This document shows, in pieces, positions 47,164 through 64,000 of a stretch of DNA of 64,000 nt (its first letter is position 1; every line of letters begins with the position of its first letter). This stretch comes from Blastococcus saxobsidens (lineage in GTDB: Bacteria > Actinomycetota > Actinomycetes > Mycobacteriales > Geodermatophilaceae): contig NZ_POQT01000002.1 in NCBI RefSeq assembly GCF_002938435.1, forward strand, positions 62,001 through 126,000, given 5' to 3'. Made by a program: the position numbers and the translations under genes. The notes beneath the pieces were generated by a model. The model was not told where the DNA came from. It ran no database searches and saw nothing but the letters and a program-made list of their open reading frames with translations.

Positions 47164-47241
47164 CACACCGGCGCCGACCTGCTCACCGACAGGCAACGCC
47201 AGCGCCTGACGGCGCTGTGCGCCGCCAGGAACCACCTGCGG
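47164..47241 (+). pseudogene. Possible ISL3-type transposase fragment
   Basis: A 26-residue stretch, HTGADLLTDRQRQRLTAL plus CAARNHLR, resembles the linker region of ISL3-family transposases (LLTDxQxxRLxALF). No more of that protein is seen on either side, and the reading frame differs from the next fragment. Confidence 0.35.
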
Positions 47242-47246
47242 GCACC

Positions 47247-47640
47247 GTCCTGGATCTGGACGACACGATGCGAGAGACCCACGGCTACGCCAAGCAGGGC
47301 GCCGGCTACGGCTACAACAAGGTCAAGGGCCTCAACGCGCTACTGGCCACGATCTCCATCCCGATCGCGGCGCCGGCAATCGGCGCCGCCAAGCTGCGCA
47401 AGGGCGCGGTCAAGTCCGCCCGCGGAGCGGGGAAGCTGCTGGGCGAGGCGCTGGGCACTGCCCGGGCCTGCGGCGCCGGCGGCCCCGATCGCAGCGGGCT
47501 GGTGCTGGTGCGCGCAGACTCGGCGTTCTACTGCCACGACGTCATCGCCGCCGCCAGCCGCGGTGGGGCCCGGTTCTGGATCACCGCCCGGATGGGCGCC
47601 GCGGTGCGCAAGGCGATCGCCGCCATCGATGAGTCGGCGC
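47247..47640 (+). mobile_element. IS1380-family transposase internal fragment
   Basis: Translates as VLDLDDTMRETHGYAKQGAG, YGYNKVKGLNALLATISI, LRKGAVKSARGAGKLLGEAL, GLVLVRADSAFYCHDVIAAA and RFWITARMGAAVRKAIAAID. This is the central catalytic part of IS1380-type DDE transposases (D in DLDDT and RADSAF). The N- and C-terminal thirds and any terminal inverted repeats are missing, so it is a dead remnant. Confidence 0.75.
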
Positions 47641-48281
47641 TCCGTGCGGCGGTTGCGGCTGCACCTGCCCCGCGACCGGCCGTGGGAACACGCCTGGACC
47701 CCGCTGTTCGGCGCCACGCTCGGCCCACCGGCAGCGGCCTGACCCGACCACCGCCCTACCGGGCCCGACCGGAGACCGACCGTGGAAGAGCCGGACAGAG
47801 CGGCGGCTGATCCACGCCCCGATCAGGCAATCAAGATCGAATCATGGACCGGCGGACGCGACCACCATCGATGGTGGATCGAGGCTGGAGCCGGTGGCTT
47901 CCGCCCCCGGCTGCACAGCAATTGCGAAGAGCCGTGACACCTCCGTCGTGGACGGGCCGAGGAAATGCTTGGAGAATGCACCCCGAATTGCTCGGGAGCC
48001 TGCTTTATTTGATTGATTGCTGCGGCGCCGGCGTCGTTTGCCGTATTCCTCGCGCTTCTGCGCCTCCCGACCGTGCGCCGTGCGCCGAGCGGCCGAAGCC
48101 CCGGTCGGGCACGGACGGTGCGACCGAGGCAATGATGTGGGCCCCCGGCGGACCACCCCTGTGACCCAGGCAATAAAATGGTCCCAGGACGTGCTGGTTC
48201 TCACAGGCCAGAGCGCAGATAATCCACAAAGAAGCGCCTATGCTAAGTGCCAGGACTTAACGAAAGCATCAAGCGAGGAGA
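47641..48281. other. 641-bp region without a recognised gene
   Basis: More AT-rich patches than surrounding DNA (for example GCTTTATTTGATTGATTG near 48003). Overlapping open frames on both strands look non-coding. The last about 80 bp presumably hold the promoter of the 68-aa gene. Confidence 0.5.
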
Positions 48282-48488
48282 ATGAAAGTGACCAGCACCA
48301 CCGGCATCCACGGGCAGACCACTATCGCTACCTGGCCTCAGACCCAGTGGCCTCGGATGCAGCGGGCGCTCGCCGGCCAGGTCGCCCTCGTCCGCAGCGC
48401 GATGGCCGCCGCCCACGCTTACGAGTACGCCCGGACCGACGCGGCACGGCGTCAGGTCATGGCCGACTTCATCGGGAGCGTTCGCTGA
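48282..48488 (+). CDS. 68-aa hypothetical protein
   Basis: ATG 48282 with GAGGAGA upstream, a good ribosome-binding site. The sequence (MKVTSTTGIHGQTTIATWPQ, then ALAGQVALVRSAMAAAHAYE and DFIGSVR) looks helical and amphipathic with two Trp. No family recognised and no signal peptide. It is the only plus-strand gene in the island and is convergent with the decarboxylase-like gene. Confidence 0.5.
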   Translation: MKVTSTTGIHGQTTIATWPQTQWPRMQRALAGQVALVRSAMAAAHAYEYARTDAARRQVMADFIGSVR

Positions 48489-48516
48489 GCTGACGCGTCC
48501 CCAGCGATGGCGCTCG

Positions 48517-49494
48517 TCAGACATAGGCCGGCGGGTTCTCCAAGGTCGCCGGGTGGAACAACTCCTCCGGGGTGAGTGCCCGCGAGGCCACCCCCTGCTC
48601 CAGCGCATAACGCAAAAACGTCTGCAGCGTGTGGGCGTTGCTGTCGTCGAGGCCGTAGTGCCACGGGTCCGGGCCGAGCAGGGCGCGCTCCTCCTCCTGA
48701 AGCGCCCGGAGCCAGGCGAGGCTCACCGTCCGCGGGTCCTGCAACCGACGCATGGCCGTGGCCTTCGCCGCGTCGAAAGCGTCCATGAGGTTGCGCGGTA
48801 GCCATGGGTACCGCTCGGCCACGTCGGCACGGATGGCGACAACGTGCATGATGGGGAAGATTCCCGTACTGCGGTAGTAGTCCTGCTCGGCCTGGCGCGG
48901 ATCCGGGAAGATCCGGCGGATCGTCGGTTCCCCCGCCAGCACGGGCCCGGGCAGTTCCGGATAGATCAGGCCCGCGACGTCCCCATTGACGCACCCGTTG
49001 ACGACGTCCTCGCCGGGGGTCACCGTCTCGAGGCTCAGCCCGGGCGGCAGCTCCAGGGGCACGTCCTCGCCGTCCTGGGCGATCCACCGGACCGCGGTGA
49101 GGTCCATGCCGTGGTGTTCGGCGAGGATGCCGCGCAGCCAGACCCCGGCGGTCGTCTGCCAGCTGCGCACGCCGACGGTCCGACCGGCGAAGTCCGCGGC
49201 CTCGGTGACCCCTGCAGCCGCGGACACGAAGGCGTAGCCGTGCCGGAACCGGCGGTGCGGAAAGACCGGGATGGCGACGAGGTCGTCCTCTCCGCGGCTG
49301 CGCTTGGCGACGAAGGACCCCAGGGACATCTCGGCGATGTCGAACTCGTGGTGCTTGAGCATCCGCCAGTGGCGCTGCGGAGAGGGGTAGGTCATCGTCA
49401 CGAGGTCGACGCCCTTCGGCGTGACGACACCGTCGACCAGTGGTCGAGTGATGTCGTAGTCACCGCAGGCCATCACGAGCCGTACTGTGCTCAC
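48517..49494 (-). CDS. 4,5-dihydroxyphthalate decarboxylase-like protein
   Basis: 325 aa from GTG 49494, overlapping the ferredoxin-subunit stop (GTGA). VRLVMACGDYDITRPLVDG, HHEFDIAEMSLGSFVAKRSR, IPVFPHRRFRHGYAFV and GVRSWQTTAGVWLRGIL follow the Pht5/4,5-DHP-decarboxylase pattern, a periplasmic-binding-like fold used as a cytosolic enzyme. No signal peptide, consistent with an enzyme rather than a binding protein. Last gene of the FAD1-large1-small1 transcript. It probably decarboxylates a hydroxylated aromatic or heteroaromatic acid; substrate unknown. Confidence 0.75.
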   Translation of the reverse strand: MSTVRLVMACGDYDITRPLVDGVVTPKGVDLVTMTYPSPQRHWRMLKHHEFDIAEMSLGSFVAKRSRGEDDLVAIPVFPHRRFRHGYAFVSAAAGVTEAADFAGRTVGVRSWQTTAGVWLRGILAEHHGMDLTAVRWIAQDGEDVPLELPPGLSLETVTPGEDVVNGCVNGDVAGLIYPELPGPVLAGEPTIRRIFPDPRQAEQDYYRSTGIFPIMHVVAIRADVAERYPWLPRNLMDAFDAAKATAMRRLQDPRTVSLAWLRALQEEERALLGPDPWHYGLDDSNAHTLQTFLRYALEQGVASRALTPEELFHPATLENPPAYV

Positions 49495-50015
49495 TGGTGA
49501 ACTTCCTCGGGAGTCGTCGCGGTGTCGTCGGTCGGTCCGGAAACCAGCCGCTCCAGGGCCTCGCGGACCTGCGGATAGGAACCGCAGCGGCAGAGATTGC
49601 CCGCGAGTTCGTCGACCAGGTGGTCGACGGACGCTTCGGGGTCGCGGTCGATGGCGGCCTGGGCGGCCAGTGCCATGCCCGGGATGCAGTACGAGCACTG
49701 GAACGCCCCGGCGTCGACGAAGGCCTGCTGCGCCGACGAGATGGCCGAGCAGCTCGTGGCCGCAAGACCTTGCGGGGTGGTCACCTGCCGCCCCTCGGCC
49801 ATGACGGTCAGCAGCAGGCACGAACTCACCGCGTCCCCGTCGAGGAGCACCGTGCACGTGCCGCACACCCCGATGCCGCAGCAGTAGCGCACGCTCGTCG
49901 TTCCGCAGCGGTCGCGGAGCGTCTCCAGCAAGGTCTCGTCCGTGCGGACATCGAAGGCGCGGGTCCGGCCGTCCACCGCTACCTCGACGGGCCTCGACTC
50001 AGTTCTTTCGGTCAT
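49491..50015 (-). CDS. Molybdenum hydroxylase 1, [2Fe-2S] subunit
   Basis: 174 aa from ATG 50015, 17 nt inside the large-subunit gene. The plant-type cluster motif CCGIGVCGTCTVLLDGDAVSSC is abbreviated here as CGIGVCGTC...SSC, and the second cluster appears as FQCSYCIPG and GNLCRCGSYP. All eight cysteines are present. Passes electrons from the Mo site to FAD. Partner of the two genes upstream. Confidence 0.92.
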   Translation of the reverse strand: MTERTESRPVEVAVDGRTRAFDVRTDETLLETLRDRCGTTSVRYCCGIGVCGTCTVLLDGDAVSSCLLLTVMAEGRQVTTPQGLAATSCSAISSAQQAFVDAGAFQCSYCIPGMALAAQAAIDRDPEASVDHLVDELAGNLCRCGSYPQVREALERLVSGPTDDTATTPEEVHQ

Positions 50016-52290
50016 CGGCTTGCTTCTCCCGGAGGGCTCGGAGAACCTTCTCGGCCGTGACGGGCAGGTCCCGGATCCGTACGCCCACGGCGTCGTGCAC
50101 GGCGTTGGCGACGGCGGGCGCCATGGGCGGCACCGTGCTCTCGCCGATCCCGTGCGGCTCGGCGTCCGGGTCGGCATCGCTGAGCACGGTGCTGCTCGTC
50201 AGGGGCACGTCGAGCAGCGAAGGAATCTGGTAGTCGGAGAGGTTCGGGTTGATCATCTGCCCGGCCTCGTAGAGGGTCTCCTCCATCACCGCCTGCCCGA
50301 GGCCGAACAGCATGCCGCCCTCGATCTGCTTGCGGGCTCGTTCGGCATCGATGAGGCGGCCGGCGTAGGTTGCGCCGTGCGCCCGCAGGACGTGCACCCG
50401 GCCGGTCTCGGTGTCGACCTCGACCTCCACACCGACCACTCCCTGGTGGAAGTGCACGCTCACGTTCCCCTGACTGGTCTCGGGGTCCAGCCGGCCGGCA
50501 CCCGGCGGGGTCTCGTAGCGGCCGGTGCCGACGAGTTCCCCGGCACCCGAGCTGCGCACCACGTCGGCGTAGGTCATCCGCTGGGCAGGATCGCCAGGCG
50601 AGCTGACGCAGCCGTCGCGGTGCACGACCTGGTCAGGGGTGATGCCCCAAGGCTGAGCGACCTGCTGGGCGATGCAGGCGCGCAGGTCCGAGGCCGCACG
50701 TTCGACGGCGAGCCCCGTAGCGAAGGTGGTCCGGCTGGAGCTCGTCGTCTGGTCGAACGGTGTCCAGCCGGTGTCCGGCCAGGAGACCGACACGTCCTCT
50801 GCAGGCATGTCGAGACGGCGGGCCGCCATCTCGGCCAGGGAAGCCGCTGCTCCCTGGCCCATCTCCACCGCGCTCGTCCGCACTGCCACCTGCCCCTCGG
50901 CGTCGACCTGGACCTGTGCCTCCGAGCGGGTCGGCGTGCGCGTCGTCTTCAGGACGGCCGCGACGCCGCGTCCGCGCCGGCGGGTGCGGGTGCGGGTGGA
51001 GGAAGTGGGCGGCGCGTCGGCGGTCAGCGCGTCGTCGACGGCGGTGAGCAGGTCCACGTAGTGCATCTCGTGCATGACGTCGCCGGTGGCGAAGGCGTCG
51101 CCGTCGCGCAGGAGGTTGCGCCGACGCCACTCCACCGGATCCACGCCCAGCTCGGCGGCGATCTCGTCGGCGGCGCTCTCGTGGGCCCAGCAGACCTGCC
51201 CGGTCATCGCGCCCCGGAACGGCCCGGTGGGAACGGTGTTGGTGTAGCGGGCCACCGAGCGGGCCAGCACGTGCGGGATCCGGTACGGCCCGGGCGAGCG
51301 GATCATGCCGGTGCGGCTGGACCGTGGCGTCTGGAGCGCGTAGGCGCCGGAGTTCCAGACGATGTCTATGATCCGCGCCACCAGCAGGCCGTCCTCGTCG
51401 ACACCCGTCGTCATGGTGACGGTCGCGGCGTGCTTGGACGCGCTCTGGAAGACTTCGTCGCGGCGCAGCTCCATGCGGACCGGCGCCCCGACAGCGCGGG
51501 AGGCCAGCGCGACCAGCCCCTCCAGCCGGAGGTCGATCTTGGAGCCGAAGGCCCCGCCGAGGCTGTCTCCGCGCACCCGCACCCGGTCGGGATCGAGCCG
51601 GAACATGGTGGCCAGTCGCTGTCGCACCACATAGGGGGACTGCGTGCCGGTCCACACCTCCAGCGAGCCGTCGGGCAGCCAGGCGCCGGTCGCGCTGTGC
51701 GGCTCCATCGGCACGTGGTTCTGGGCCGGGGACGTGTAGGTGGCCGTGTGCACGTGTGCGGCGGTTGCCATGGCCCGCTCGGCGTCGCCGTGCACCAGGG
51801 TCCACGTACCGCTGTCGTTGTTCGGCCACTCGTCGTGAAGTTGCGGCGCGTCCGGCGCACCGGCCAGCACCGGATCGACGACGTGGGGCAGCTCCTCGAT
51901 GTCCACCCACACCTGGGCGGCCGCCGCCTCCGCGGTAGCGCGGGAATCGGCGATGACCAGGGCCACCGGCTCACCGACGTAGCGCACCTTCCCGATGGCC
52001 AGGACCGGCTGATCGGCACGGTTCTCCCCGTACCACGGTGAGATCCCGTCGTCCGCGGCGACGTGCGAACCGTCGATGACCGCCACGACTCCGGGCACGG
52101 CCAGGGCGTCGGCGGCGTCGATGGAGGTGATCCGACCGTGGGGGGCGACGCTGCGCACGGCGACGGCGTGCAGCGTGCCCTCGATCCGCCGGTCCACCGC
52201 GAAGGTGAACGTGCCGCGGACGCGGTCGACGGCATCGCCGACGGCGCGCCGCGACAGCGGCGCCGCGCCCGGGTTCAGTGCGGGACTCAC
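49999..52290 (-). CDS. Molybdenum hydroxylase 1, molybdopterin (large) subunit
   Basis: 763 aa from GTG 52290 (GTGA overlap with the FAD subunit). Xanthine-oxidase-family landmarks: KVRYVGEPVALVIADS, QNHVPMEPHSATGAW, RGDSLGGAFGSKIDLRLEG, GPFRGAMTGQVCWAHES, SAVEMGQGAAASLAEMAARR and the catalytic glutamate motif PHGIGESTVPPMAPAVANA. The CO-dehydrogenase loop (AYxCSFR) is absent, so it is not CoxL. Likely hydroxylates an N-heteroaromatic or aldehyde substrate. Needs Mo-cytosine or molybdopterin cofactor; no maturation gene is nearby. Confidence 0.92.
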   Translation of the reverse strand: MSPALNPGAAPLSRRAVGDAVDRVRGTFTFAVDRRIEGTLHAVAVRSVAPHGRITSIDAADALAVPGVVAVIDGSHVAADDGISPWYGENRADQPVLAIGKVRYVGEPVALVIADSRATAEAAAAQVWVDIEELPHVVDPVLAGAPDAPQLHDEWPNNDSGTWTLVHGDAERAMATAAHVHTATYTSPAQNHVPMEPHSATGAWLPDGSLEVWTGTQSPYVVRQRLATMFRLDPDRVRVRGDSLGGAFGSKIDLRLEGLVALASRAVGAPVRMELRRDEVFQSASKHAATVTMTTGVDEDGLLVARIIDIVWNSGAYALQTPRSSRTGMIRSPGPYRIPHVLARSVARYTNTVPTGPFRGAMTGQVCWAHESAADEIAAELGVDPVEWRRRNLLRDGDAFATGDVMHEMHYVDLLTAVDDALTADAPPTSSTRTRTRRRGRGVAAVLKTTRTPTRSEAQVQVDAEGQVAVRTSAVEMGQGAAASLAEMAARRLDMPAEDVSVSWPDTGWTPFDQTTSSSRTTFATGLAVERAASDLRACIAQQVAQPWGITPDQVVHRDGCVSSPGDPAQRMTYADVVRSSGAGELVGTGRYETPPGAGRLDPETSQGNVSVHFHQGVVGVEVEVDTETGRVHVLRAHGATYAGRLIDAERARKQIEGGMLFGLGQAVMEETLYEAGQMINPNLSDYQIPSLLDVPLTSSTVLSDADPDAEPHGIGESTVPPMAPAVANAVHDAVGVRIRDLPVTAEKVLRALREKQADDRKN

Positions 52291-53150
52291 GCTGCTCCCC
52301 CGTCCCCGGCAAGCTCCAGCAGGCTGCGACGCACCTGTACCCGGACCATCTCCCGTCGGTACCAGGCCGAGCCGCGGTGGTCGTCGATCGGGTCGACCAG
52401 CATCGCGTACTCCTCGGCGACCTCCTGGGCCACCTGCTCGTCGAGCGGCCGACCCAGCGCCGCCCGGGTGACCTCCGGCCAGCGCTGCGGGATCGCGGCG
52501 ACGGCGCCGAGCACGACCTCCAGGGAGGCGAGCACGCCGTCCTGCAGACGTGCCGCGGTTGCCACTCCCACGCATGGGCGGTCCTCGGCCGACCGGCTGC
52601 AGAACTTGGTGTAGGACGCGTGGCTCCCCGGGCCGGCGGCCGGGACGTGCACCGCAGTGACCACCTCGCCGGTGCGCAGATCGGTGGTGAAGAAGTCGGT
52701 GAACATCTCCGCCGCCGGCACGATGCGCGCCGCCGTGCCGTCATCCACCTCGACGGTCGCGCCCAGGGATACCAGCACAGAGGGAGGGTCGGATGCGTAG
52801 TCGGACTCGGCCACGTTGCCGCCCGTCGTGGCCTGATTGCGGATCCGCGCGTTGCCGACCACGCCGGCGGCCGAGGCGAGACTGGGGGCGAGCTCCCGGA
52901 CGTGTGCAGAACGGGCCACCGCCGACAGCAGTACGCCGCCGCCGATCCGCAGGCCCGTCTCGGTGCGGCGCACCTCCCGCCAGCCGGGTACATCGGTCAC
53001 CCCGGTGAGGGAGATGAGATGCGTGGGGAAGATCAGCCGCTGCTGCAGCATCAGGACGACGGCGGTGCCGCCGCTGATGAACTTGGCGTCCTCGTGCTCG
53101 CGCGCCAGCGCGGCGGCTTCGCCGAGAGTCTCAGGTCGGAGGAACTTCAC
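52287..53150 (-). CDS. Molybdenum hydroxylase 1, FAD subunit
   Basis: 287 aa from GTG 53150. VKFLRPETLGEAAALAREHE is the normal N-terminus of the family; longer upstream starts exist without a better ribosome-binding site. FAD motifs KFISGGTAVVLML and NARIRNQATTGGNVAESDYA are present. First gene of operon 1, about 100 bp downstream of a candidate operator. Confidence 0.9.
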   Translation of the reverse strand: MKFLRPETLGEAAALAREHEDAKFISGGTAVVLMLQQRLIFPTHLISLTGVTDVPGWREVRRTETGLRIGGGVLLSAVARSAHVRELAPSLASAAGVVGNARIRNQATTGGNVAESDYASDPPSVLVSLGATVEVDDGTAARIVPAAEMFTDFFTTDLRTGEVVTAVHVPAAGPGSHASYTKFCSRSAEDRPCVGVATAARLQDGVLASLEVVLGAVAAIPQRWPEVTRAALGRPLDEQVAQEVAEEYAMLVDPIDDHRGSAWYRREMVRVQVRRSLLELAGDGGAA

Positions 53151-53230
53151 CGCGAAGTGCCCGCGTTCGCCGGCGGTGAGAGCCGGGACCGGCGGAAGCC
53201 ACCCATGCCTGCCCTCCCGCACCGCGTGCC

Positions 53231-53250
53231 GTATACGTCCGTATGCATAC
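53231..53250. promoter_or_regulatory. Candidate operator 1 (GTATAC-GTCC-GTATGCATAC)
   Basis: An AT-rich, partly palindromic 20-mer in very GC-rich DNA, in the 122-bp gap between the two molybdenum-hydroxylase operons, 81 bp upstream of FAD1. Shares GTATGCA and a neighbouring GTAT with sites at 60993 and 62237. Confidence 0.5.
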
Positions 53251-53272
53251 TAGTGGCCATCCTTCCCCGGCA

Positions 53273-55435
53273 CTAGCCCCCCGGCTCGCGTGGCGGTGCG
53301 GACTCCGGTCCGGTCTGCCGGAGCCGCGCGTGCACCGCCTCCGCCGAAAGGGGAAGCTGCTGGAGCCGCACGCCGCTGGCACGGGCGACGGCGTTGGCGA
53401 TGGCCGGCGCGACTCCCAGGTTGCCGAACTCCCCCACCGCCTTGGCCCCGTACGGGCCGGTGCCCGATTCGCCTGCCACGGACACGATGCGCAGGGGAGG
53501 CACGTCGGGCGACGTGGGCAGCTTGTAGTCGCCGAGCGTGCCGCACATGATCTGGCCGCCCTCGACCGGCAGCTCCTCCATGAGCGCTCCGCCGAGCCCG
53601 TAGACGAAGCCGCCTTCCAGTTGACCCCGGTGTGCCAGGGGACTGATCACCGTTCCGGTGTCTGCGGCCAGGACCGCCTCGACGACGCGGATCTGGCCCG
53701 TTTCCTCGTCCACCTCGACCTCCACCGCGAGCGCCCCGTAGGCGCCGCAGTCCTCGTCCGCCGGTGCCACCACCTCCTGCGCCACCTCGACCGGGAACAC
53801 CGCCCCAGGTTCCGCTATGAGCCGCGACAGCTCGGTCGCGGCGAGTCGCGTCGCCTCACCGAGGACCCGGGTCACCCGGCTGGCTCCGGCCCCGGAATCG
53901 AAAAGAGCCTCCGCGGTCGGTTGCTGGACGACCTCCACCTGCCGCTCCGGGATGCCCATCGTCGCGGCCGCGACCCGCGCGATCATCGTCACCGTGCCGC
54001 CGCCCTGGTCGGCCGCTCCCGTGATCACCTGGATGCGGTCCGGGCTCAGCGCCCGCATCACCACGCCGCCTCTCCCGGTGCCGCCCTTCCGGCGGTAGAG
54101 GGCGACCCCCACTCCGCGACCCGGCGAGCGGACACCGGACCAGTCGATCCCGTCAGCGGCCCGTAGGAGGACCTGGTCGATGACCGCTGCCGTCTCGCTG
54201 GGATCCTGCCCTTCCGTCTTCCCACCGGCCAGGTTCTTCCGCCGCAGCTCAACGGGGTCGATCCCCAGCTCGCTCGCGATCATGTCGACGTGGGATTCGC
54301 CCGCGAAGATGGCCTGCACGTCCCCCGGAGCACGCATGTGCCCGCCGGGCGCCGCGTTCGTGTAGACCGCGGTGAGCCGGTGGTGAGTGGCGGGGACGGA
54401 GTACGCGGACATGGTGTCCACGCCACCGTGGGGAACGAGATGCGCGTTCGCCTTCGCCGCCCCGTAGGCCCCACCGTCGAACAGCACCTCGGCCGAGTGC
54501 GCGACGAACGTGCCGTCCCGTGTGACCCCGGTGCGAAGGGTGAGCTCGGTGGCGTGCCGGGGGGCCGTGGAGCTCAGGTCCTCCAGGTAGGACATGATCG
54601 AACGCACCGGCCGCCCGGTCTCGCGCGCCAGGTAGAAGCAGACGTACTCGTCGAGCGAGAAGCCCTTCCCCCCGAAATCCCCGCCGATGAACTTGTTGTA
54701 GACGACGATCTTGTCCACCGGGTGACCTGTGGCGGCGGCCATCTGCTGCCGGAGGCCGAACGGGGCCTTGTTGGTCGAGATCACATGGCAGACGTCGTCG
54801 TCGAACCAGACGATCGCCGCGTGGGGTTCGATGTAGCCCTGATGCTGCCGAGGGGTCCGGAAGGTGTGCTCGAAGACGTGGTCCGCCCGGCCGAAGGCGG
54901 CTGCCAGCTCCTCGGCCCCGGCGCCGACAACCAGTTCGCCCTGGATGTTCGGATGGGCAGGAGCGTGACGGGCGCCCTGCACGAGCCGGTACGCCTCGGC
55001 TTCGGGATGGAGGACCGGCGCGTCGGGCGTCGTGGCCAGGCGCGGGTCGAGCAGCGTCGGCAACTCCTCGTACTCCACGTCGATGAGTCGCACCGCCTCC
55101 TCCGCTGCCTGGCGGGTGTCGGCGGCCACGGCGGCGACCCGCTGCCCCATGAACCGGACCCGGTCCGACGCGAGCACAGGCATGTCGCGGAGCTGACGTC
55201 CGTAGCGCACGTCCCCGATGTCCGCCGCCGTGAGCACCGCACGGACCCCCGGGACCTGCTCGGCTGCCGTCGTGTCGATCCGCACGATCCGGGCATGCGC
55301 GACGCCGCTCCCGAGACAGGCGGCATGGAGTTGCCCAGGGAGGGCGTGGTCGGCTGTGTACCGGGCGTGGCCGGTCACCTTCAGGGGCCCCTCGTGCCGG
55401 ACTTCAGGGATCGCGAAGGGCAGGTTGGTGGTCAC
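53273..55435 (-). CDS. Molybdenum hydroxylase 2, molybdopterin (large) subunit
   Basis: 720 aa from GTG 55435 (GTGA overlap with FAD subunit 2). Landmarks: GHARYTADHALPGQLHAACL, RVRFMGQRVAAVAADT, GYIEPHAAIVWF, NKFIGGDFGGKGFSLDEYVC, GHMRAPGDVQAIFAGESHVD, TGAADQGGGTVTMIARVAAA and the catalytic Glu motif AKAVGEFGNLGVAPAIANAV. Clearly diverged from large subunit 1, so this is a second enzyme and not a recent duplicate. No CoxL-type loop. Substrate unknown. Confidence 0.92.
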   Translation of the reverse strand: MTTNLPFAIPEVRHEGPLKVTGHARYTADHALPGQLHAACLGSGVAHARIVRIDTTAAEQVPGVRAVLTAADIGDVRYGRQLRDMPVLASDRVRFMGQRVAAVAADTRQAAEEAVRLIDVEYEELPTLLDPRLATTPDAPVLHPEAEAYRLVQGARHAPAHPNIQGELVVGAGAEELAAAFGRADHVFEHTFRTPRQHQGYIEPHAAIVWFDDDVCHVISTNKAPFGLRQQMAAATGHPVDKIVVYNKFIGGDFGGKGFSLDEYVCFYLARETGRPVRSIMSYLEDLSSTAPRHATELTLRTGVTRDGTFVAHSAEVLFDGGAYGAAKANAHLVPHGGVDTMSAYSVPATHHRLTAVYTNAAPGGHMRAPGDVQAIFAGESHVDMIASELGIDPVELRRKNLAGGKTEGQDPSETAAVIDQVLLRAADGIDWSGVRSPGRGVGVALYRRKGGTGRGGVVMRALSPDRIQVITGAADQGGGTVTMIARVAAATMGIPERQVEVVQQPTAEALFDSGAGASRVTRVLGEATRLAATELSRLIAEPGAVFPVEVAQEVVAPADEDCGAYGALAVEVEVDEETGQIRVVEAVLAADTGTVISPLAHRGQLEGGFVYGLGGALMEELPVEGGQIMCGTLGDYKLPTSPDVPPLRIVSVAGESGTGPYGAKAVGEFGNLGVAPAIANAVARASGVRLQQLPLSAEAVHARLRQTGPESAPPREPGG

Positions 55436-56298
55436 GTGGCGCTCTCCGAGACGAGTCGCTGGAGCAGTCTGCGCGTGCTGATGCGGGCCATCTCCCGCTT
55501 GTAGTCCCCCGACCCGCGTGCGTCGCTGACCGGGTCGAGAGCCTCGGGAACCAGGTCGGCGGCGGCGGCGAGACCGGCGACGTCCGTACCGCCGCCGACC
55601 AGAGCGGACTCGGCCTCGCGGCACCTCTGGGGTGTCGATCCTCCCCCTGCCACCGCGATGCGCGCCGTGTCGATGCACCCGTCGACGACCGTCAGTCCGG
55701 CCGCGACCGAGATCGTCGCGTAGTCGTCCTGGGTCCGAGGCAGGAACTTGAGATAGCCCGCGATCACCCCGAGCGACGCCGGGGGGAGGTGGACCGAGGT
55801 GAGGATCTCGTCCGGGTCGACGACCGTCTCGAAGAAGTCGACGAACAGTTCGGCGACAGGGACCTCCCGCGTCCGCGTGGGCCCGGTGAGCCGCGCGACG
55901 GCGTCGTACACCATCAGCATCGGCGGCAGGTCCTGGCTCGGGTCGGCGTGGACGAGAGTCCCGCCGACCGTGGCCTGGTTCCGGATCCGCACCGTCGCCA
56001 CCTGGTGTGCCGCCTCGGCCAGTCCCGGGGCCAACCTGCGCACCGGCGGGATGGTCTCGACCTGCCGGAGCGTCGCCATGGCACCGAGCGTGATCCCGTC
56101 CCCGGAGTTCCCCTCGATGCCGCAGAGTTCCGGCACGCCGGCGAGCCCGACGACGTGCTGGGGCTCGGCCAGGCCGAGCCGTGCGAGCGTCATGAGCGAC
56201 GTGCCACCCGCGAGGATCGCGCCGTCCTCGCCGAGATCGGCGATGAGCTGGGCAGCCTCTGCCACCGTCCCGGGCCTGTGGTACCGGAACGGGCGCAT
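55432..56298 (-). CDS. Molybdenum hydroxylase 2, FAD subunit
   Basis: 288 aa from ATG 56298, overlapping the ferredoxin subunit stop. MRPFRYHRPGTVAEAAQLIA N-terminus; FAD motifs GAILAGGTSLMTLARLGLAE and VRIRNQATVGGTLVHADPSQ. C-terminal KREMARISTRRLLQRLV is typical. Carries electrons to the final acceptor. Confidence 0.92.
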   Translation of the reverse strand: MRPFRYHRPGTVAEAAQLIADLGEDGAILAGGTSLMTLARLGLAEPQHVVGLAGVPELCGIEGNSGDGITLGAMATLRQVETIPPVRRLAPGLAEAAHQVATVRIRNQATVGGTLVHADPSQDLPPMLMVYDAVARLTGPTRTREVPVAELFVDFFETVVDPDEILTSVHLPPASLGVIAGYLKFLPRTQDDYATISVAAGLTVVDGCIDTARIAVAGGGSTPQRCREAESALVGGGTDVAGLAAAADLVPEALDPVSDARGSGDYKREMARISTRRLLQRLVSESAT

Positions 56299-56789
56299 CA
56301 GTCGGACTCCCCCTGGCCGGCCTTGGCGGCCTGGAGGACGGCGGCGACGATGGAGTAGTAGCCGGTGCACCGGCAGAGGTTGCCCGTCATCCACTCCCGG
56401 ACCTCCTCGGCTGCGGGGTCCGGGCATTCGCGGAGGAGGGCCGTCGCCGCGACCACCTGCCCCGGTGTGCAGATGCCGCACTGGAAGCCGCCGCACTCCA
56501 TGAATGCGGTCTGGACCGGCGTCAGTGTGCCGTCCTCCGCCGCGAGCCCCTCCACCGTCGTGACCGCGCGTCCCTGGACCATTCCGACGGGCACGATGCA
56601 GGACGACATCAGTTTCCCGTCGACCAGCACGCTGCACGCGCCGCAGACGCCTACTCCGCAGCCCTCCTTGGCCCCGGTCAGTGCCAGATCCTCGCGCAGC
56701 ACCTCCAGCAGCGAGCGCGAAGGGGCGGTGGTGACCTCCTGGGAGATCCCGTTGACGGAGAGGGTGATTCTTTCGCTGGTATCGGACAA
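56298..56789 (-). CDS. Molybdenum hydroxylase 2, [2Fe-2S] subunit
   Basis: 163 aa. TTG 56789 is the likely start because AGGAAGG lies 8-10 nt upstream and the next residues (SDTSERITLSVNG) are the normal N-terminus. Both clusters are complete: CGVGVCGACSVLVDG...SSC and CGGFQCGICTPGQ...GNLCRCTGYY. Lies 44 bp after the amidohydrolase-like gene. Confidence 0.92.
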   Translation of the reverse strand: MSDTSERITLSVNGISQEVTTAPSRSLLEVLREDLALTGAKEGCGVGVCGACSVLVDGKLMSSCIVPVGMVQGRAVTTVEGLAAEDGTLTPVQTAFMECGGFQCGICTPGQVVAATALLRECPDPAAEEVREWMTGNLCRCTGYYSIVAAVLQAAKAGQGESD

Positions 56790-56833
56790 CTGGGTCTTCC
56801 TTCCTAGCGCCGGACGACGCGGCGAACGCTTCG

Positions 56834-57550
56834 TCAGGAGGCGTCCAGGATTGCTGGTTCATCGCTGCGGAGCAGCGCACAGCCCTGCTCGACATCGACG
56901 ACGGTGGCGTACTTGAGGTGCATGTCGAACAGGCTCGCCTTGTGGGAGAGCGGACTGCGGTCGAACGTGGCGTCCTCGACCACGACGACGTCGAACCCGA
57001 GCGAGTAGGCGTCGACGACCGTGGCTCGGACGCACCCACTGGTTGTCTCGCCGCACACGACCAGCGCATCGACCCCTGCCCGGCGGAGCACCGTGTCGAG
57101 CGTCGTGCCGAAGAACGCGCTCGCACGGTCCTTCGCGATGACGACCTCTCCATCGACCGGGGTCAGCGGGTCGACGATGCGGTCGGCCCAGTCCGCCGGA
57201 AGGCCTTCGCTGCCGGCCGCGATGGAGGTGAGCGCCCGCAGCGTCGTCGTGGCGGCTGCTACGCCGGCGACCGTGTGGATGACGGGCACTCCTGCGGTCC
57301 GGGCGGTGCCCAGCAACGCGGTGAGCCCGGGCAGCGCGTCCCACGCCACGGAACCGCAGCTGGCGGGCGCCTCGGCGATCGCCTCGGCCAGCGGCGCCGG
57401 CCGCGTGCCGAACGCGCGGTTGTACAGGTCGATCATCACCAGGGCGCGCCTGCCCCGCACGGGACGGGGACCGGCATACCCGCGCGCGACCAGGCGCTCC
57501 TCGTCACCGAGCACGTCGTCCCAGCAATGCTCCGTACCGTTGGTCCTCAC
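56834..57550 (-). CDS. Isochorismatase-family amidohydrolase (maleamate/N-carbamoylsarcosine type)
   Basis: 238 aa from GTG 57550, sharing one base with the TAG of the permease gene. The catalytic triad is visible: Asp in RRALVMIDLYNRAFG, Lys in GEVVIAKDRASAFFGT and Cys in VVCGETTSGCVRATVVDA. The N-terminal WDDVLGDEERLVARGYAG extension is typical of the N-carbamoylsarcosine/maleamate amidohydrolase branch. It probably removes an amide nitrogen during breakdown of the imported compound. Confidence 0.82.
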   Translation of the reverse strand: MRTNGTEHCWDDVLGDEERLVARGYAGPRPVRGRRALVMIDLYNRAFGTRPAPLAEAIAEAPASCGSVAWDALPGLTALLGTARTAGVPVIHTVAGVAAATTTLRALTSIAAGSEGLPADWADRIVDPLTPVDGEVVIAKDRASAFFGTTLDTVLRRAGVDALVVCGETTSGCVRATVVDAYSLGFDVVVVEDATFDRSPLSHKASLFDMHLKYATVVDVEQGCALLRSDEPAILDAS

Positions 57551-59706
57551 TACAGCGGGACGTCGAGCAGGACGACGAACAGTCCGTAGAGGAAGGCCCA
57601 CGACCCCAGTGTCACCAGCACGCTGCGCAGCCAGCTCTCTCGAGCGAGCAGCCGGAGGAAGAACAGCAGGGCCACCGGGATCGCCACCACGAAGCCGACC
57701 AGCCAGGCCAGCGCGACGAAGCCCACGGCCCACAGCCCGAAGGCGGTCTGCCTCAGCAGGACCTGCCGGCCGGACATCTCTTGCTCCTCCTCCTGCTCGG
57801 CCGCCAGCTCGGCTGCCTGCGTCCGGGTACGGGCCTCCTCCAGCACCGATGTGTGGCCGGTCGTGGCGGCGGCCGGATCGACGGTCACCGGATCCGGGGA
57901 GGGCGCACTCACCGCCCGCTGGCGGCGTCCGCCGGTGACCGACACGAGCGTGGAGCGGATCCGCACTGCAGCCCCGGGCAGCGCATCGAGGAAGAGTTGC
58001 AGGGTCAGTGCCCCGACCACGGGGATGCCGATCAACAGCGGCATCGTCGCCGCCTCGTTCTCGATGTCGAACGCCTGGACGACGATCGCCGCGGAGAACA
58101 CGAGCAGCAGGGCGTCGAAGATGATCCGGCCCGGCTGACGGGGCGCGCTGGCCAGCTCCTCGTCGTCCTCACCTTCCACCGAGGCGCGCTCCGCCGACCG
58201 TGCCCGCCGATATGCCTGCCAGGCGGCAAAGAGGAGGACGAGGGCGCAGACCGTGACCAGGACCGCCGAGATGGGTCGGGTCAGGAGCGGCATGGGCGAG
58301 CCGAAGGTGGCCACCATCTGGTAGTAGGACCGCTCGACCAGCTCGCCCAGGACCAGAGCGATGATGAGCGCCACGCGAGAGAAGCCGTACCGGCGCATGG
58401 CATAGCCGACGTAGCCGAACACCAGGGCCACGACGACGTCGAGGATCTCCAGCCCGATCGTGTAGGACCCGACCAATGCTGCTACCGCGATCAGCGGGGT
58501 GAACAGGCCGGGCCTCAGCGCCGTGAGCTTCGTCGCGTACCGCGCCACCGCATAGACCACGATGGGGGCGACGAACTTGGCCGCGACCATGCCGATGACG
58601 AGGGTGTACACGAGGTCGATGTGCTCGATCATGAGGGTCGGGCCGGCTGGGATGCCCTGCATGATCAGCGCCCCGAGCAGGATCGCCATCCCGACCGTTC
58701 CGGGGATGCCGAAGGCCACGGTCGGCAGGAGTGATCCGCCCTCCTTGGCATCGTTCGCCGATTCCGCGGCGATGACGCCTTCCACGGCGCCCTTGCCGAA
58801 CCGTTCCGGCGTCCGTGAGGACTGCTTGGCGTGCGAATAGGCGAGGAAGCCGGAGACGGCACCGCCCACGCCGGGGATCACGCCGATGACCGTGCCGATG
58901 ATCGACGCGCGGATCACGAGGAACCAGTGCCGGAAGGTGACTCGCACGCCCTCCCAGAAGGTCACCGGCTCGGACTTGTCCGCGAGCACCCGCGCGACGT
59001 GCGTGTCCGCCGCGCCCTGCTCGGCGATGCTCGTGCCCTTGCCGAAGAGCGCGAGCACCTCCGCACCGGCGAAGAGGCCGATGAGGACGGGGACGATGTT
59101 GACGCCGTCCCAGAGGTAGAACTGGTCGAAGGTGAAGCGCGGGCTGCCGGTGATCGGCTCCAGCCCGACGAATGCCAGCAGGAAGCCGACGGCTGCGGCC
59201 GCGAGCCCTTTGAAGGTGTTGCGGTCGGTGATCACGGCGATGACCGTCAGGCCGAGGATCGCCATCATCAGGAACTCGGGATAGGAGAAGGAGAGCACCA
59301 GGCTCTGCGCCGGCGGGATGAGCGCCAGCAGCACGGCAGTGCCGAACAACCCGCCGAGGACGGAAGCTGCGGTGGCGGCGCCGATGGCGGCGCCGGCCCG
59401 GCCCTGTTTGGCCATCGGATAGCCGTCGAACGTGGTGGCGGCGTTCTCGGGAGAGCCGGGGGTGTTCACGAGGATCGAGGTGAGCATTCCCCCGAAGCCG
59501 GCCGGGCTGTATGCGGCGATGAGGAACAGCACCGCGTCTTCGGGGTCCATGGTGAAGCTGATCGGGATGAGCAGCGCCAAGGCGACCGATCCGGCCATGC
59601 CGGGGAGGAAACCGATCAGCATGCCGAACAGCACGCCGGCCACGAGCAGCACCGGATTCGGCCATGCCATCAGGACCGACACCGCGCCCAGCAGTCCGTC
59701 GATCAT
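57550..59706 (-). CDS. TctA-TctB fusion, tripartite tricarboxylate transporter permease
   Basis: 718 aa. Residues 1 to about 500 are a full TctA: VLFGMLIGFLPGMAGSVALA, YSPAGFGGMLTSILVNTPGS, GVIPGVGGAVSGFLAYSHAK and AFGIPGTVGMAILLGALIMQ. After an acidic linker (EGEDDEELAS) four hydrophobic helices form a TctB-like domain (IIFDALLLVFSAAIVVQAFD ... FGLWAVGFVALAWLVGFVVA), with a charged Glu/Gln-rich loop between helix pairs. Normally TctA and TctB are separate proteins. Imports a carboxylate delivered by Bug-type TctC using the proton or sodium gradient. Confidence 0.9.
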   Translation of the reverse strand: MIDGLLGAVSVLMAWPNPVLLVAGVLFGMLIGFLPGMAGSVALALLIPISFTMDPEDAVLFLIAAYSPAGFGGMLTSILVNTPGSPENAATTFDGYPMAKQGRAGAAIGAATAASVLGGLFGTAVLLALIPPAQSLVLSFSYPEFLMMAILGLTVIAVITDRNTFKGLAAAAVGFLLAFVGLEPITGSPRFTFDQFYLWDGVNIVPVLIGLFAGAEVLALFGKGTSIAEQGAADTHVARVLADKSEPVTFWEGVRVTFRHWFLVIRASIIGTVIGVIPGVGGAVSGFLAYSHAKQSSRTPERFGKGAVEGVIAAESANDAKEGGSLLPTVAFGIPGTVGMAILLGALIMQGIPAGPTLMIEHIDLVYTLVIGMVAAKFVAPIVVYAVARYATKLTALRPGLFTPLIAVAALVGSYTIGLEILDVVVALVFGYVGYAMRRYGFSRVALIIALVLGELVERSYYQMVATFGSPMPLLTRPISAVLVTVCALVLLFAAWQAYRRARSAERASVEGEDDEELASAPRQPGRIIFDALLLVFSAAIVVQAFDIENEAATMPLLIGIPVVGALTLQLFLDALPGAAVRIRSTLVSVTGGRRQRAVSAPSPDPVTVDPAAATTGHTSVLEEARTRTQAAELAAEQEEEQEMSGRQVLLRQTAFGLWAVGFVALAWLVGFVVAIPVALLFFLRLLARESWLRSVLVTLGSWAFLYGLFVVLLDVPL

Positions 59707-59821
59707 CGGCGGGCCCCCACCCGGGAACGCGCTGGACCGAACTGCGGACGCTCAGAGGGAATGATCATCGCCTTCTCCATCGCATCAGGCACTCACCTGT
59801 CGGGGCCACCACGGTGGGGTC

Positions 59822-59851
59822 GGGGCCCGCACCGGTGGAGGTGCGGGCCCC
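59822..59851. promoter_or_regulatory. Intra-operon hairpin between tctC and tctAB
   Basis: Perfect 12-bp stem GGGGCCCGCACC / GGTGCGGGCCCC, 6-nt loop, 7 nt after the binding-protein stop. Probably a partial terminator or RNA stabiliser that yields more binding protein than permease. Confidence 0.7.
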
Positions 59852-59857
59852 GGTCGC

Positions 59858-60910
59858 TCAGCCTGCCGCTTCCTCGAGCACGTCCTCGTACTCGGCGAAG
59901 GTCTCCACCGTGTTCGACACGAACTCCGCGGCCTCTTCGCCGCTCGCCGGCACGACACGCAGGTCGGACTCCTCGGCCAACTGGAGGAACTCCTCGTTCT
60001 CCAGCGTGTTCATCAGCGCCTCCTCGAGAGGCTCGGCGATGCAGTCCGGAGTGCCCGGGGCGGTCACCAGGACGCGGTGCTGCTCCAGGACGTCGGCCAG
60101 CTCGGGGTGCCCCGTCTCGGCCGCCGTCTGGACGCCCTGCAGCTGTTCGTAGCCGACCAGCTCGGGCGTGATCTCCTCGGTGCCGAGGTAGAGGATCGGC
60201 TTCACCTCACCGGCCTCCATGAAGGGCAGGATGCTGCTGAGCGAGGCCACCGCGACGTCGGAGTCGCCGCGGCGGACCGCCAGGACGACATCCGAGGTGC
60301 CCTCGTGGAGGATGTACTCGGCCTCCACGCCGTACGCGTCGTAGGTGATGGTCTCGATCGGTGAGATGTCCTGACCCGCGTGCTTGACCGGACCGGCGGC
60401 GACGAGGTCCTCGATCGTCTCGATGTCGGAGTCCGCCGCGACCACGAACACCTGCGGGTCGGCGGTCGTCTGCCCGAGGTAGGCGAGGTTGGTCACGTCG
60501 AACCCCTCCTCCACGTTGCCGAGGATCTGGTTCACCGCGACATAGCCCGGTTCGGTGAACACCAAGGTGGTGCCGTCGGGCTCGGCCGAGTACACCGTGT
60601 TGATCGCGCGCATGCCACCACCGCCGGGCTGGTTCTCCACACGGACCGCAGCCTCGCCGCCCAGCTCCTCCTCGAGGAACGGGGCCAGCAACCGCGCCCA
60701 CGCGTCGAACCCACCGCCGGCGGAGTAGGGGACCAGCAGCGTGACGTCCTCGCTGGGGTAGTTCTCGCACGCCGCCGGGTCACCCTCGGCCTGCGCGCCT
60801 CCTGCGCCGCTGTCGTCACCGCAGGCGGCGAGCGAGACCGGTAGCAGTGCCGCGGCCGCCAGAGCCGCCAGTCTGCCGGGACGGAGATGCCGTGCCTTCG
60901 TGCTGCTCAT
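59858..60910 (-). CDS. Bug-family (TctC) substrate-binding lipoprotein 1
   Basis: 350 aa. Lipoprotein signal LAALAAAALLPVSLAAC (lipobox LAAC). Bug-type fold: DVTLLVPYSAGGGFDAWARL (first ligand loop), VRVENQPGGGGMRAINTVYS and TTLVFTEPGYVAVNQILG. Delivers a carboxylate to TctAB. Clearly homologous to the next binding protein, sharing PYxAGGGFDAWARLLAP and LHEGTSDxVLAVRRGD. Confidence 0.9.
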   Translation of the reverse strand: MSSTKARHLRPGRLAALAAAALLPVSLAACGDDSGAGGAQAEGDPAACENYPSEDVTLLVPYSAGGGFDAWARLLAPFLEEELGGEAAVRVENQPGGGGMRAINTVYSAEPDGTTLVFTEPGYVAVNQILGNVEEGFDVTNLAYLGQTTADPQVFVVAADSDIETIEDLVAAGPVKHAGQDISPIETITYDAYGVEAEYILHEGTSDVVLAVRRGDSDVAVASLSSILPFMEAGEVKPILYLGTEEITPELVGYEQLQGVQTAAETGHPELADVLEQHRVLVTAPGTPDCIAEPLEEALMNTLENEEFLQLAEESDLRVVPASGEEAAEFVSNTVETFAEYEDVLEEAAG

Positions 60911-61210
60911 GTGCGCACTCCCGCTGTCGTTGAGCCGTTCACTGGACTCGCGTGCAGGTCGGCGTTCCGATGGTCAGCCGGTTCATGTTCACGTGTATCC
61001 ACCTGCATACGCGCAAGAGTGAAGCGGAACACACCGCGGCGGTCAACCGCTGCATGCGTACCGAGACTGAACCGGGACATGGGGCGGGCCCGGCCGGGAC
61101 AGGCGGCCGCGTTGCGCTGCTCGAGGAACATCGACCGGCCGCGGGCCGGCCCCTGGGAGGGCAACCGCCACGCATCCCCCCTCGTGCTCGTGCCGGCGAG
61201 TGCGGCTCGA
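60911..61210. promoter_or_regulatory. 300-bp intergenic region between the two tctC genes
   Basis: No gene seen. It carries candidate operator 2 and a second GCATGCGTAC-like element near 61053, both about 80-145 bp upstream of tctC1, so the main promoter of the tctC1-tctAB-hydrolase-hydroxylase 2 transcript is probably here. Confidence 0.5.
60993..61012. promoter_or_regulatory. Candidate operator 2 (GTGTATCCACCTGCATACGC)
   Basis: Reverse complement reads GTATGCAGGTGGATACAC. It shares GTATGCAG with operator 3 and GTATGCA with operator 1. 83 bp upstream of the tctC1 start. Confidence 0.5.
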
Positions 61211-62218
61211 CTACGAGACCGCCTCCTCGAACAGCGCCTTGTACTCGGTGAAAACGTCGAAGGAGTCGGCGACCTGCTGCTGGATCTCATCGGCAGGTGC
61301 GTGGTCGATCACGAGGTCCGCCTCCCGGGCCTTCGCCTGGAATTCTGGATCGGCCAGCACGTCCTCGAAAGCATCGGCGAACGTCGTCTTGATGCATTCC
61401 GGGATGTTCGGAGGCGCGGACACTGCCCGGGCATATTGAAGAATCTTGTCCAGCTCCGGCTCCCCCTCGTCAGCAGCGTTCGGCACGCCCTCGAGGAATT
61501 CGCTGCCCGGCACGTCCGACGCCGGTTCCTCGCCGATGTAGAAGATCGGCTTCACCTGGCCTGCCTCGAGATATCCGAGGACACTGCTGAGCGAATTGGC
61601 GGCCAGGTCGGCGTCGCCCCGCCGCACGGCGAGGACGGAGTCGGACGTCCCCTCGTGGAGCACCGGTGTCGCCTCGACACCGAACTCTGCCAATGCGATG
61701 ACCTCCGTCGTCTCGGCGCCCTCGACGGCGAAGTTCACCGGCGCCTCCGCCAGATCGTCGACGTTGCCGATGGCGGACTCCGCAGCCACGTAGAAGACGT
61801 GCGGGTCGGTCGTGAGCCGGCCGAGGAAGGTCATCTCCCTCATGTCGAAGCCCTCTTCCGTGCGCCCGATGATCTGGTTCAGGGCCATACTGCTGACGTC
61901 GCTGATGAGGATGGTGGTCCCGTCCGGTGGCCCGGAGTACACCTGGTTCACCCCTCGCATGGAGCCGCCACCCTCGATGTTCACGACCCGCACGGCAGCG
62001 TCTCCGGCGAGACGGTCCTCGAGATAGGGCGCCAGGAGCCGGGCCCAGGCGTCGAAGCCACCGCCCGCTCCGTACGGAACGACGAAGTCGATGTCCTCCG
62101 ATGGGAAATCTGCGCATTCGTCCGCGGCTGCCGAGGTGTCCGACTCGCCTTGTCCACACGCGACCGTCAGCAGGAGGACGGATGCCAGAGCTGCGAGTCT
62201 GGTACCAGGCAAGACCAC
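61211..62218 (-). CDS. Bug-family (TctC) substrate-binding lipoprotein 2
   Basis: 335 aa from GTG 62218. Lipoprotein signal TRLAALASVLLLTVAC (lipobox TVAC). IDFVVPYGAGGGFDAWARLL and VRVVNIEGGGSMRGVNQVYS are the Bug ligand loops; the second differs from the paralogue (EGGGS instead of QPGGGG), hinting at a different ligand. Separated from tctC1 by 300 bp and with its own operator-like site, so it may be a separate transcript. Codon use is less GC-biased than core genes. Confidence 0.88.
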   Translation of the reverse strand: MVLPGTRLAALASVLLLTVACGQGESDTSAAADECADFPSEDIDFVVPYGAGGGFDAWARLLAPYLEDRLAGDAAVRVVNIEGGGSMRGVNQVYSGPPDGTTILISDVSSMALNQIIGRTEEGFDMREMTFLGRLTTDPHVFYVAAESAIGNVDDLAEAPVNFAVEGAETTEVIALAEFGVEATPVLHEGTSDSVLAVRRGDADLAANSLSSVLGYLEAGQVKPIFYIGEEPASDVPGSEFLEGVPNAADEGEPELDKILQYARAVSAPPNIPECIKTTFADAFEDVLADPEFQAKAREADLVIDHAPADEIQQQVADSFDVFTEYKALFEEAVS

Positions 62219-62442
62219 GGGAACCCCTCAGGTCATCGTATGCAGCCGTATGGCGACCGAGTGAAACGCATCTCACCTGGGACGTCAACGGCGATACGAA
62301 GACGCCGACTGCCGCACATGTGCGTCAGCCTCCGCAGCAATTCCAGCGACGAGAGACCGCGCCGGGATGCCGTCCGATCGACCCGCCGGTAGCTCCGGTG
62401 ATCACACCAGGAGGGGTGCACGACCTGCTGCGGCGGCCACGT
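62219..62442. promoter_or_regulatory. Promoter region of tctC2 and right boundary of the island
   Basis: No gene. Contains candidate operator 3 and a perfect 12-bp palindrome CGCACATGTGCG at 62313-62324. It ends at the 14-bp sequence (62440-62453) that is duplicated at the island's left end. Confidence 0.5.
62237..62253. promoter_or_regulatory. Candidate operator 3 (CGTATGCAGCCGTATGG)
   Basis: Lies 19 bp upstream of the tctC2 GTG. Matches operator 1 as GTATrC-nnCC-GTATG over most positions and shares GTATGCAG with operator 2. Confidence 0.5.

Positions 62443-64000
<1,558 letters not shown>

Follow-up and report, generated by a model that had tools for sequence, protein, structure and literature searches.

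What is the function of an operon that combines two molybdenum (Mo) hydroxylases, a decarboxylase homolog, an amidohydrolase and an importer? This operon lies at positions 48517–62218 of the 64,000-nucleotide stretch of Blastococcus saxobsidens contig NZ_POQT01000002.1 that was analyzed here (the window). It comprises eleven genes on the minus strand, all in a single direction and in the order BugA, BugB, TctA-TctB fusion, Iso, FeS1-FAD1-L1, FAD2-L2-FeS2 and DHPdec. The original prediction for this locus listed two divergent and complete Mo-hydroxylases, an amidohydrolase with a D-K-C triad, a dihydroxyphthalate (DHP)-decarboxylase homolog, TctA-TctB and two Bug proteins, and Pfam and PDB matches bear out the whole set. 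It also described the genes as nearly all overlapping, which holds for six of the ten junctions (1–17 bases); the other four are gaps of 44, 122, 151 and 300 bases. The operon is a mosaic. Its three modules each recur on their own: M1, the importer and Iso; M2, FeS1-FAD1-L1; and M3, FAD2-L2-FeS2-DHPdec. The families are known and their assembly into eleven genes is a new variant. The reading we favor, at about even confidence, is that this mosaic was acquired horizontally and serves to break down an N-heteroaromatic mono- or dicarboxylate, probably one of pyridine.

The modules are found apart from one another. M2 is present on contig C33 of G028, a genome of the same family (Geodermatophilaceae), with identities of 72% (FeS1), 69% (FAD1) and 68–69% (L1), where it adjoins a cytochrome P450 gene (PF00067) and apparent branched-chain-type ATP-binding cassette (ABC) genes. 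M3 is retained in the same gene order on a 6.3-kb contig of an Actinophytocola metagenome-assembled genome (MAG), with identities of 56% (FAD2), 60% (L2), 57% (FeS2) and 61% (DHPdec). Other genomes hold partial combinations: G028 carries M1 and M2 on different contigs together with a DHPdec of the phthalate clade described below, B. aggregatus (G001), of the same genus, carries M1 and a 63% DHPdec, and Actinophytocola G712 carries M3 and, in another cluster, a 41% Iso relative. None of the genomes examined has all three modules. Genes of the relatives were called with a simple codon-usage script and some names were assigned by eye.

Close relatives of the large subunits are rare. L1 was found in 3 of 298 genomes of the order (E ≤ 1e-110) and 1 of 394 of the class (E ≤ 1e-120), the own genome being counted, and L2 in 3 of 298 genomes of the order (E ≤ 1e-130) and 3 of 297 of the Actinophytocola family (E ≤ 1e-140), the own genome or G712 being counted; these searches scored two to three first-look candidates per genome and may miss weaker matches. 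When every candidate was scored at E ≤ 1e-60, L1 was present in G028 and in the own genome and absent from G712, G001 and G970. As close relatives of L1 and L2 are rare and the modules lie apart in other genomes, the proposal that these seven functions form a single conserved module is rejected.

Every one of the modules can be found in some other genome or contig that lacks the remaining two, as would be expected if the operon were a genomic island whose scavenging modules were acquired independently, act on different substrates and form no linear pathway. The separation of M1 and M2 in G028, and the fact that no examined genome carries all three, fit this picture as well. Even so, it is rather unlikely: the eleven genes share one strand and mostly overlap, and 9 of the 12 family genomes with Iso also have a DHPdec homolog, which in 8 of these 9 lies less than 50 kb from Iso on the same contig.

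The chromosomal site argues for acquisition by insertion. Two housekeeping genes flank the operon: purA is its upstream neighbor, and a GDPD gene lies beyond its far end; in the window these are separated by about 16 kb, made up of the operon and a likely transposase remnant on the GDPD side (DDE_Tnp_1_4; 46830–47810, plus strand), which scores 34.0 bits against PF13701, just below the cut-off of 34.7. The purA region was taken from 20 of the 22 other genomes of the genus (not G013 and G022). Here, purA and GDPD are adjacent (nine genomes) or separated by one called gene of 316–344 residues (nine genomes); the exceptions are G016, with two called genes between them, and G019, where no GDPD match was found. 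Genes of the operon were matched downstream of purA in none of the 20. In addition, the median GC content at third codon positions is 0.898 in the eleven operon genes and 0.966 in 25 called genes with high scores from elsewhere in the window (Mann–Whitney p 6.8e-5). The borders of the insertion have no shared 11-mers, and no sigma-70 promoter-like or terminator-like site is seen in 61900–62700, which carries little weight at such GC. Since purA and GDPD are at most one called gene apart in 18 of 20 congeners, a likely transposase remnant is present and third-position GC is lower, the operon is read as a lineage-specific insertion, most likely horizontally transferred.

Both Mo-hydroxylases belong to the xanthine oxidase family. 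L1 (53273–55435, 720 residues, 69% identical to its G028 ortholog) and L2 (49999–52290, 763 residues, 60–61% identical to its Actinophytocola MAG ortholog) each have Ald_Xan_dh_C, MoCoBD_1 and MoCoBD_2 domains above the Pfam cut-offs. Each is encoded with an FAD_binding_5 subunit, FAD1 (55432–56298, PF00941 E 7e-44) or FAD2 (52287–53150, E 7e-42, with a possible alternative upstream GTG start at 53222), and with a 2x[2Fe-2S] subunit that has Fer2 and Fer2_2 domains (PF00111, PF01799), FeS1 (56298–56789) or FeS2 (49491–50015), all above cut-off. The conserved C-terminal glutamate, which we take to be catalytic, is E669 in L1 and E717 in L2, and the iron–sulfur subunits keep the cysteines that presumably bind the clusters. 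L1 and L2 are only 31.7% identical and are thus not recent copies of each other. In two stretches of MoCoBD_2, L1 lacks about 43 residues that L2 has. Damage to the protein was ruled out as the cause, because about 35 of the same residues are also missing from the orthologs of G028 and G194; the short MoCoBD_2 is a trait of the subfamily. A Mo-cofactor maturation protein (XdhC_CoxI) is encoded in the same genome.

The large subunits do not reach the NCBIfam equivalog cut-offs for xanthine dehydrogenase, 4-hydroxybenzoyl-CoA reductase, CO dehydrogenase, aldehyde oxidoreductase or glyceraldehyde dehydrogenase (best scores 408.8 of 780 for L2 and 403.5 of 994.55 for L1). The suggested comparison with NicB, NdhL, QorL and IorB was made in part, with PDB sequences, where both large subunits score about equally with several characterized groups. 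Two more Mo-hydroxylases lie in a second large catabolic cluster of the same genome (loci L028 and L029 on contig C15, about 50–90 kb), assigned mostly by eye, which also contains an NMT1-type ABC importer, a thiamine diphosphate (ThDP) enzyme, MmgE/PrpD, F420-type genes, a cupin, a 44% DHPdec homolog, TctA, TctB and Bug. Elsewhere, in the Actinophytocola MAG (L068) and in G329 (L054), a Mo-hydroxylase lies beside what by eye are UbiD/UbiX-like genes, an alpha/beta hydrolase and CoxG; L068 also has an ABC importer and a 41% Iso relative. These loci follow a similar plan with another class of decarboxylase.

The last gene of the operon, DHPdec (48517–49494), gives the most interesting general result. 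Its product aligns over residues 3–319 with PDB 9jp7 (E 5.3e-63), deposited as 4,5-dihydroxyphthalate decarboxylase. An alignment of 32 family rows, in which the window gene is represented twice, has 58 columns with at least 90% conservation; the window protein agrees with the majority in 56 of these and departs from it at F61 and F102. Invariant in all 32 rows are R44, E50, E55, R81, H85, R121, E143, H217, K244, D276, Y280, N286 and Q300, where the window protein agrees by definition, being in the set. Full-length homology and conserved residues thus place DHPdec in the 4,5-dihydroxyphthalate decarboxylase family. An alternative is that the protein is a binding protein and not a decarboxylase. 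RefSeq names many relatives, among them the plasmid matches, "ABC transporter substrate-binding protein", and two relatives from the G009 island show weak NMT1 and phosphonate-binding similarity. For the window protein this is very unlikely given the match to 9jp7 and the conserved columns; a Pfam scan gives no match at E ≤ 1e-3, and no signal peptide is seen by eye. An AlphaFold model built from eight sequences (mean predicted local distance difference test score 51) was too poor for a fold search.

Two clades can be told apart in the decarboxylase family, one associated with Rieske proteins and the other with Mo-hydroxylases. A maximum-likelihood tree was built from 33 rows, which come from loci chosen to be fetched with long flanks and not from all DHPdec matches; most short matches were left aside. 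In this tree, the window protein forms a group with its counterparts in B. aggregatus and Actinophytocola (99/90), and this group belongs to a clade of nine rows (97/95). The nine-row clade excludes a 16-row clade that holds the phthalate-type proteins (97/93). A Mo-hydroxylase large subunit is encoded in the same stretch in six of the nine rows of the window clade (the window, L056, L058, L059, L061 and the C15 copy of the own genome, at 14 kb) versus none of the 24 other rows (Fisher p 7.6e-5). Conversely, a protein with a Rieske motif is encoded in none of the nine versus 17 of the 24, in some cases 13–30 kb away (p 3.0e-4). These rows are not independent, as L059–L061 are close kin and only 16 loci, eight of them with two rows each, stand behind the 24 other rows; flanks differ in length, L057 and L060 being cut short. 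A separate contig scan by short peptide patterns, which can miss relatives, gave seven DHPdec loci. DHPdec thus lies outside the Rieske-linked clade, and the only Rieske-like motif in the window (11044–11919, a 291-residue protein) is 37 kb from the operon, so that DHPdec does not qualify as a phthalate-type decarboxylase. To our knowledge, no substrate has been assigned to the Mo-hydroxylase-associated clade.

Some members of this clade have neighbors of interest. In four Xanthobacteraceae/Rhizobiales MAG loci (L058–L061), DHPdec shares its locus with genes that by eye are hydantoinase-like HyuA/HyuB, which are the next gene in L059–L061 and about 4.6 kb away in L058. Three of these loci have a Mo-hydroxylase no more than 10 kb away, and M24-type peptidase-like genes and NMT1-type binding proteins are also seen by eye. 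The presence of hydantoinase-like genes and, in three loci, a Mo-hydroxylase beside this clade fits N-heterocycles and hydrolytic ring opening. Within the wider family, a Rieske cluster on the Massilia sp. WG5 plasmid (L042) includes a 4,5-dihydroxyphthalate decarboxylase gene that is followed two genes later by an annotated nadC (quinolinate phosphoribosyltransferase).

At the other end of the operon is a tripartite tricarboxylate transporter (TTT) system. The membrane importer is a TctA-TctB fusion of 718 residues (57550–59706; PF01970 E 1.8e-127, PF07331 31.3 bits, cut-off 29.1). BugA, the first gene (61211–62218), encodes a solute-binding protein that matches PF03401 (E 1.4e-8) and is 48% identical to BugB; its best PDB match is an unnamed TTT protein, 25hk, followed by the terephthalate-binding TBP. 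BugB (59858–60910) is identified by its PDB matches, which are TBP (E 7e-18), 7ndr (8.5e-16), which we take to be TphC, and Bug27 (2.7e-13). The nearest solved binding proteins with a named ligand bind terephthalate. Pyridine dicarboxylates are also recognized in this family: Bug27 and Bug69 bind quinolinate with dissociation constants of 136 and 70 nM (PMC11452294), and TphC is reported to be slightly stabilized by 2,5-pyridinedicarboxylate (PMC8556258).

Iso (56834–57550) is an isochorismatase-type cysteine hydrolase, with a PF00857 domain (E 1.2e-34) and the triad D41-K140-C173. It stays below the NCBIfam equivalog cut-offs for RutB (73 of 378 bits), BiuH (62 of 370) and nicotinamidase (33 of 174). 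At E ≤ 1e-45, a threshold chosen after the results in the score gap between 9.2e-48 and 3.9e-38 (48 of 112 genomes match at 1e-20), Iso is present in 12 of 112 family genomes. TctA, TctB and Bug genes adjoin it in all 12, that is the window, where TctA and TctB are fused, and eleven relatives, whose TctA and Bug proteins are 39–43% and 26–31% identical to those of the window. DHPdec homologs occur in 22 of the 112 (23 with G068, a dropped 58-residue fragment), and both genes in nine, where 2.4 are expected (p 1.4e-5). The two are 5–46 kb apart on one contig in eight of these nine; the ninth, G096, is fragmented. The link has exceptions: DHPdec matches are absent from three Iso genomes (G019, G023 and G038), and 13 genomes with DHPdec lack an Iso at this threshold.

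Fetched stretches from six genomes with Iso (G004, G005, G009, G021, G024 and G028) hold an island with a Rieske oxygenase (96–98% identical to that of G009; only a 60-residue edge piece in G028) and a LigK-type aldolase (82–93%; in G009 its score exceeds the NCBIfam cut-off). An Amidohydro_2 protein, a DHPdec of the phthalate clade and an EutA-like protein are also encoded there. With the exception of EutA, all of these are present in the stretch fetched from G970, a genome that came up in a different search. This Geodermatophilaceae island of about 45 kb also contains ferredoxin, PanB-like, cupin, FAD monooxygenase, TTT importer and Iso genes; EutA (PF06277, E 2.9e-108 in G009) is odd in an island of aromatic type. 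The company of importer and Iso in all 12 genomes would suit a route in which Iso acts first, hydrolyzing an imported aromatic or heteroaromatic, phthalamate-like carboxamide to an acid that is then hydroxylated and decarboxylated, and the Rieske, LigK-like and phthalate-clade DHPdec genes of the six islands and G970 agree with it. This order of events is unlikely, in that the nearest solved relatives of Iso with a named activity hydrolyze N-carbamoyl or ureido amides, the Mo-hydroxylases are hard to place for a benzenoid acid and 3 of the 12 genomes have no DHPdec homolog.

The original prediction saw in Iso a late, nicotinate-like maleamate step. The nearest PDB relative of Iso is 26st, an N-carbamoylsarcosine amidohydrolase (E 1.5e-25), and the second-best match, which lends this idea some support, is 3ot4/3uao (3ot4, E 7e-23), presumably NicF of Bordetella. 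In such a route, Iso would be a maleamate amidohydrolase that acts after oxygenative cleavage of a dihydroxypyridine. The nic pathway also pairs a Mo-hydroxylase with an isochorismatase-type amidohydrolase; unlike it, the operon has no recognized dihydroxypyridine dioxygenase, isomerase (maleate isomerase included) or monooxygenase, and no recognized genes of the NicA/NicB type. No dihydroxypyridine ring-cleavage dioxygenase was recognized among the open reading frames of 44000–64000 or by Pfam in the operon, the rest of the genome not having been searched. Furthermore, Iso goes with the importer and not with ring-cleavage genes, which weakens the maleamate analogy. A nicotinate-type route is thus most improbable.

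The reading that remains best is import, hydroxylation and carboxylate removal of an N-heteroaromatic acid, as was first proposed, and none of the ten operon proteins scanned (BugA was left out) reaches an NCBIfam equivalog cut-off. We infer every substrate and the order of the steps. The two Bug proteins and the TctA-TctB fusion would import the acid, as expected from family function. Mo-hydroxylases use water-derived oxygen to hydroxylate ring carbons next to nitrogen, and the two enzymes here would do so at ring carbons of the acid that are activated by its nitrogen. DHPdec would then remove a carboxylate activated by the new hydroxyl, as homology and its pairing with L2 suggest; that the genes of M3 have stayed together in one other genome, the Actinophytocola MAG, and that the clade as a whole is associated with Mo-hydroxylases, supports this hydroxylation–decarboxylation step. 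Doubly hydroxylated pyridines are lactam or imide tautomers, a 2,6-dihydroxypyridine being an imide, and can be opened by hydrolysis, so that no ring-cleavage oxygenase is needed. This would explain why, as first noted in the original prediction, none is seen among the called genes of the operon. Ring opening would accordingly be hydrolytic and not oxygenative, with any ring-opening hydrolase encoded outside the operon, and Iso would free the nitrogen as ammonia, from an open-chain amide or from an imported amide.

The plasmid neighbors of Iso relatives hint at tri- or dicarboxylate products after the opening of a cyclic amide. Among nine plasmid contexts opened besides Variovorax EBFNA2 and the SRS16 Mo cluster, five have such neighbors: dihydroorotase-family (L077, L082), aconitase (L082), isocitrate-lyase-type (L079, L080, L082, L084) and MmgE/PrpD (L077, L079, L084) genes. 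The remaining four have none of these.

Several observations weigh against the reading of the operon as one pathway for an N-heteroaromatic acid. Among the called genes of the operon, neither a ring-opening hydrolase nor, as the original prediction also noted, a regulator is seen. In G028, the stretch with the L1 ortholog beside the P450 gene has no DHPdec or Iso, which means that the two hydroxylases need not share one pathway. Iso and the importer are also found in the Rieske/LigK islands, which have a benzenoid look, and none of the nine plasmid contexts has a Mo-hydroxylase in the stretch. Finally, the closest DHPdec relative, that of B. aggregatus, adjoins an FAD monooxygenase gene, with no Mo-hydroxylase in the fetched stretch.

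The isonicotinate route of Mycobacterium sp. INA1 reportedly uses two Mo-hydroxylases and passes through citrazinate, cis-aconitamide and cis-aconitate, and is said to need a citrazinate hydrolase and a cis-aconitamide amidase as well. Compared by description only, the operon is like it in the two Mo-hydroxylases, the amidohydrolase, the lack of a ring-cleavage oxygenase and the actinobacterial host, and unlike it in having a decarboxylase and no recognized citrazinate hydrolase. A decidedly unlikely but specific variant of the favored reading is an oxygenase-independent route for a pyridine dicarboxylate with neighboring carboxylates, e.g. pyridine-3,4-dicarboxylate, via citrazinate to cis-aconitate. 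Here, L1 and L2 would hydroxylate C2 and C6, and the DHPdec-clade enzyme would turn the resulting phthalate-like dihydroxy diacid into 2,6-dihydroxyisonicotinate (citrazinate). Hydrolytic opening and deamidation by Iso would then yield cis-aconitate, which would enter the citric acid cycle.

Other systems share parts of the gene set. Two Variovorax plasmid clusters combine a Mo-hydroxylase, a Bug protein and an Iso relative (38–41% identity) in one cluster, and differ in having a single hydroxylase, an FAD monooxygenase, an IclR regulator and no DHPdec in the stretch. The phthalate 4,5-dioxygenase pathway shares the decarboxylase family; unlike it, the operon has no Rieske dioxygenase or dihydrodiol dehydrogenase. 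TTT systems serve other phthalate isomers, and a phthalate oxygenase of Rhodococcus erythropolis is reported to be active on quinolinate and cinchomeronate (PMC13040137). The lum cluster of Nocardioides simplex also serves actinobacterial breakdown of a heterocycle, with a xanthine-oxidase-type enzyme, a decarboxylase and hydrolases. As described in PMC12746152, it relies on a single-chain LumJ, a ThDP decarboxylase and Rieske and extradiol dioxygenases, none of which is in this operon, and a role in riboflavin/lumichrome catabolism was rejected because the enzyme sets differ. In the open-licence PMC literature, we recognized no paper on a matching gene cluster, which does not mean that none has been published.

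The operon exemplifies a catabolic unit that combines three modules and has entered the chromosome of a single lineage at one site. It offers a compact, testable system for the breakdown of an N-heteroaromatic acid without ring-cleavage oxygenases, which bears on pyridine-type pollutants and on pyridine-dicarboxylate plastics monomers. A decarboxylase family that is annotated for phthalate, or as an "ABC transporter substrate-binding protein", is now parted into two clades. If the citrazinate variant is true, the Mo-hydroxylase-associated clade would be a new class of heteroaromatic decarboxylase.

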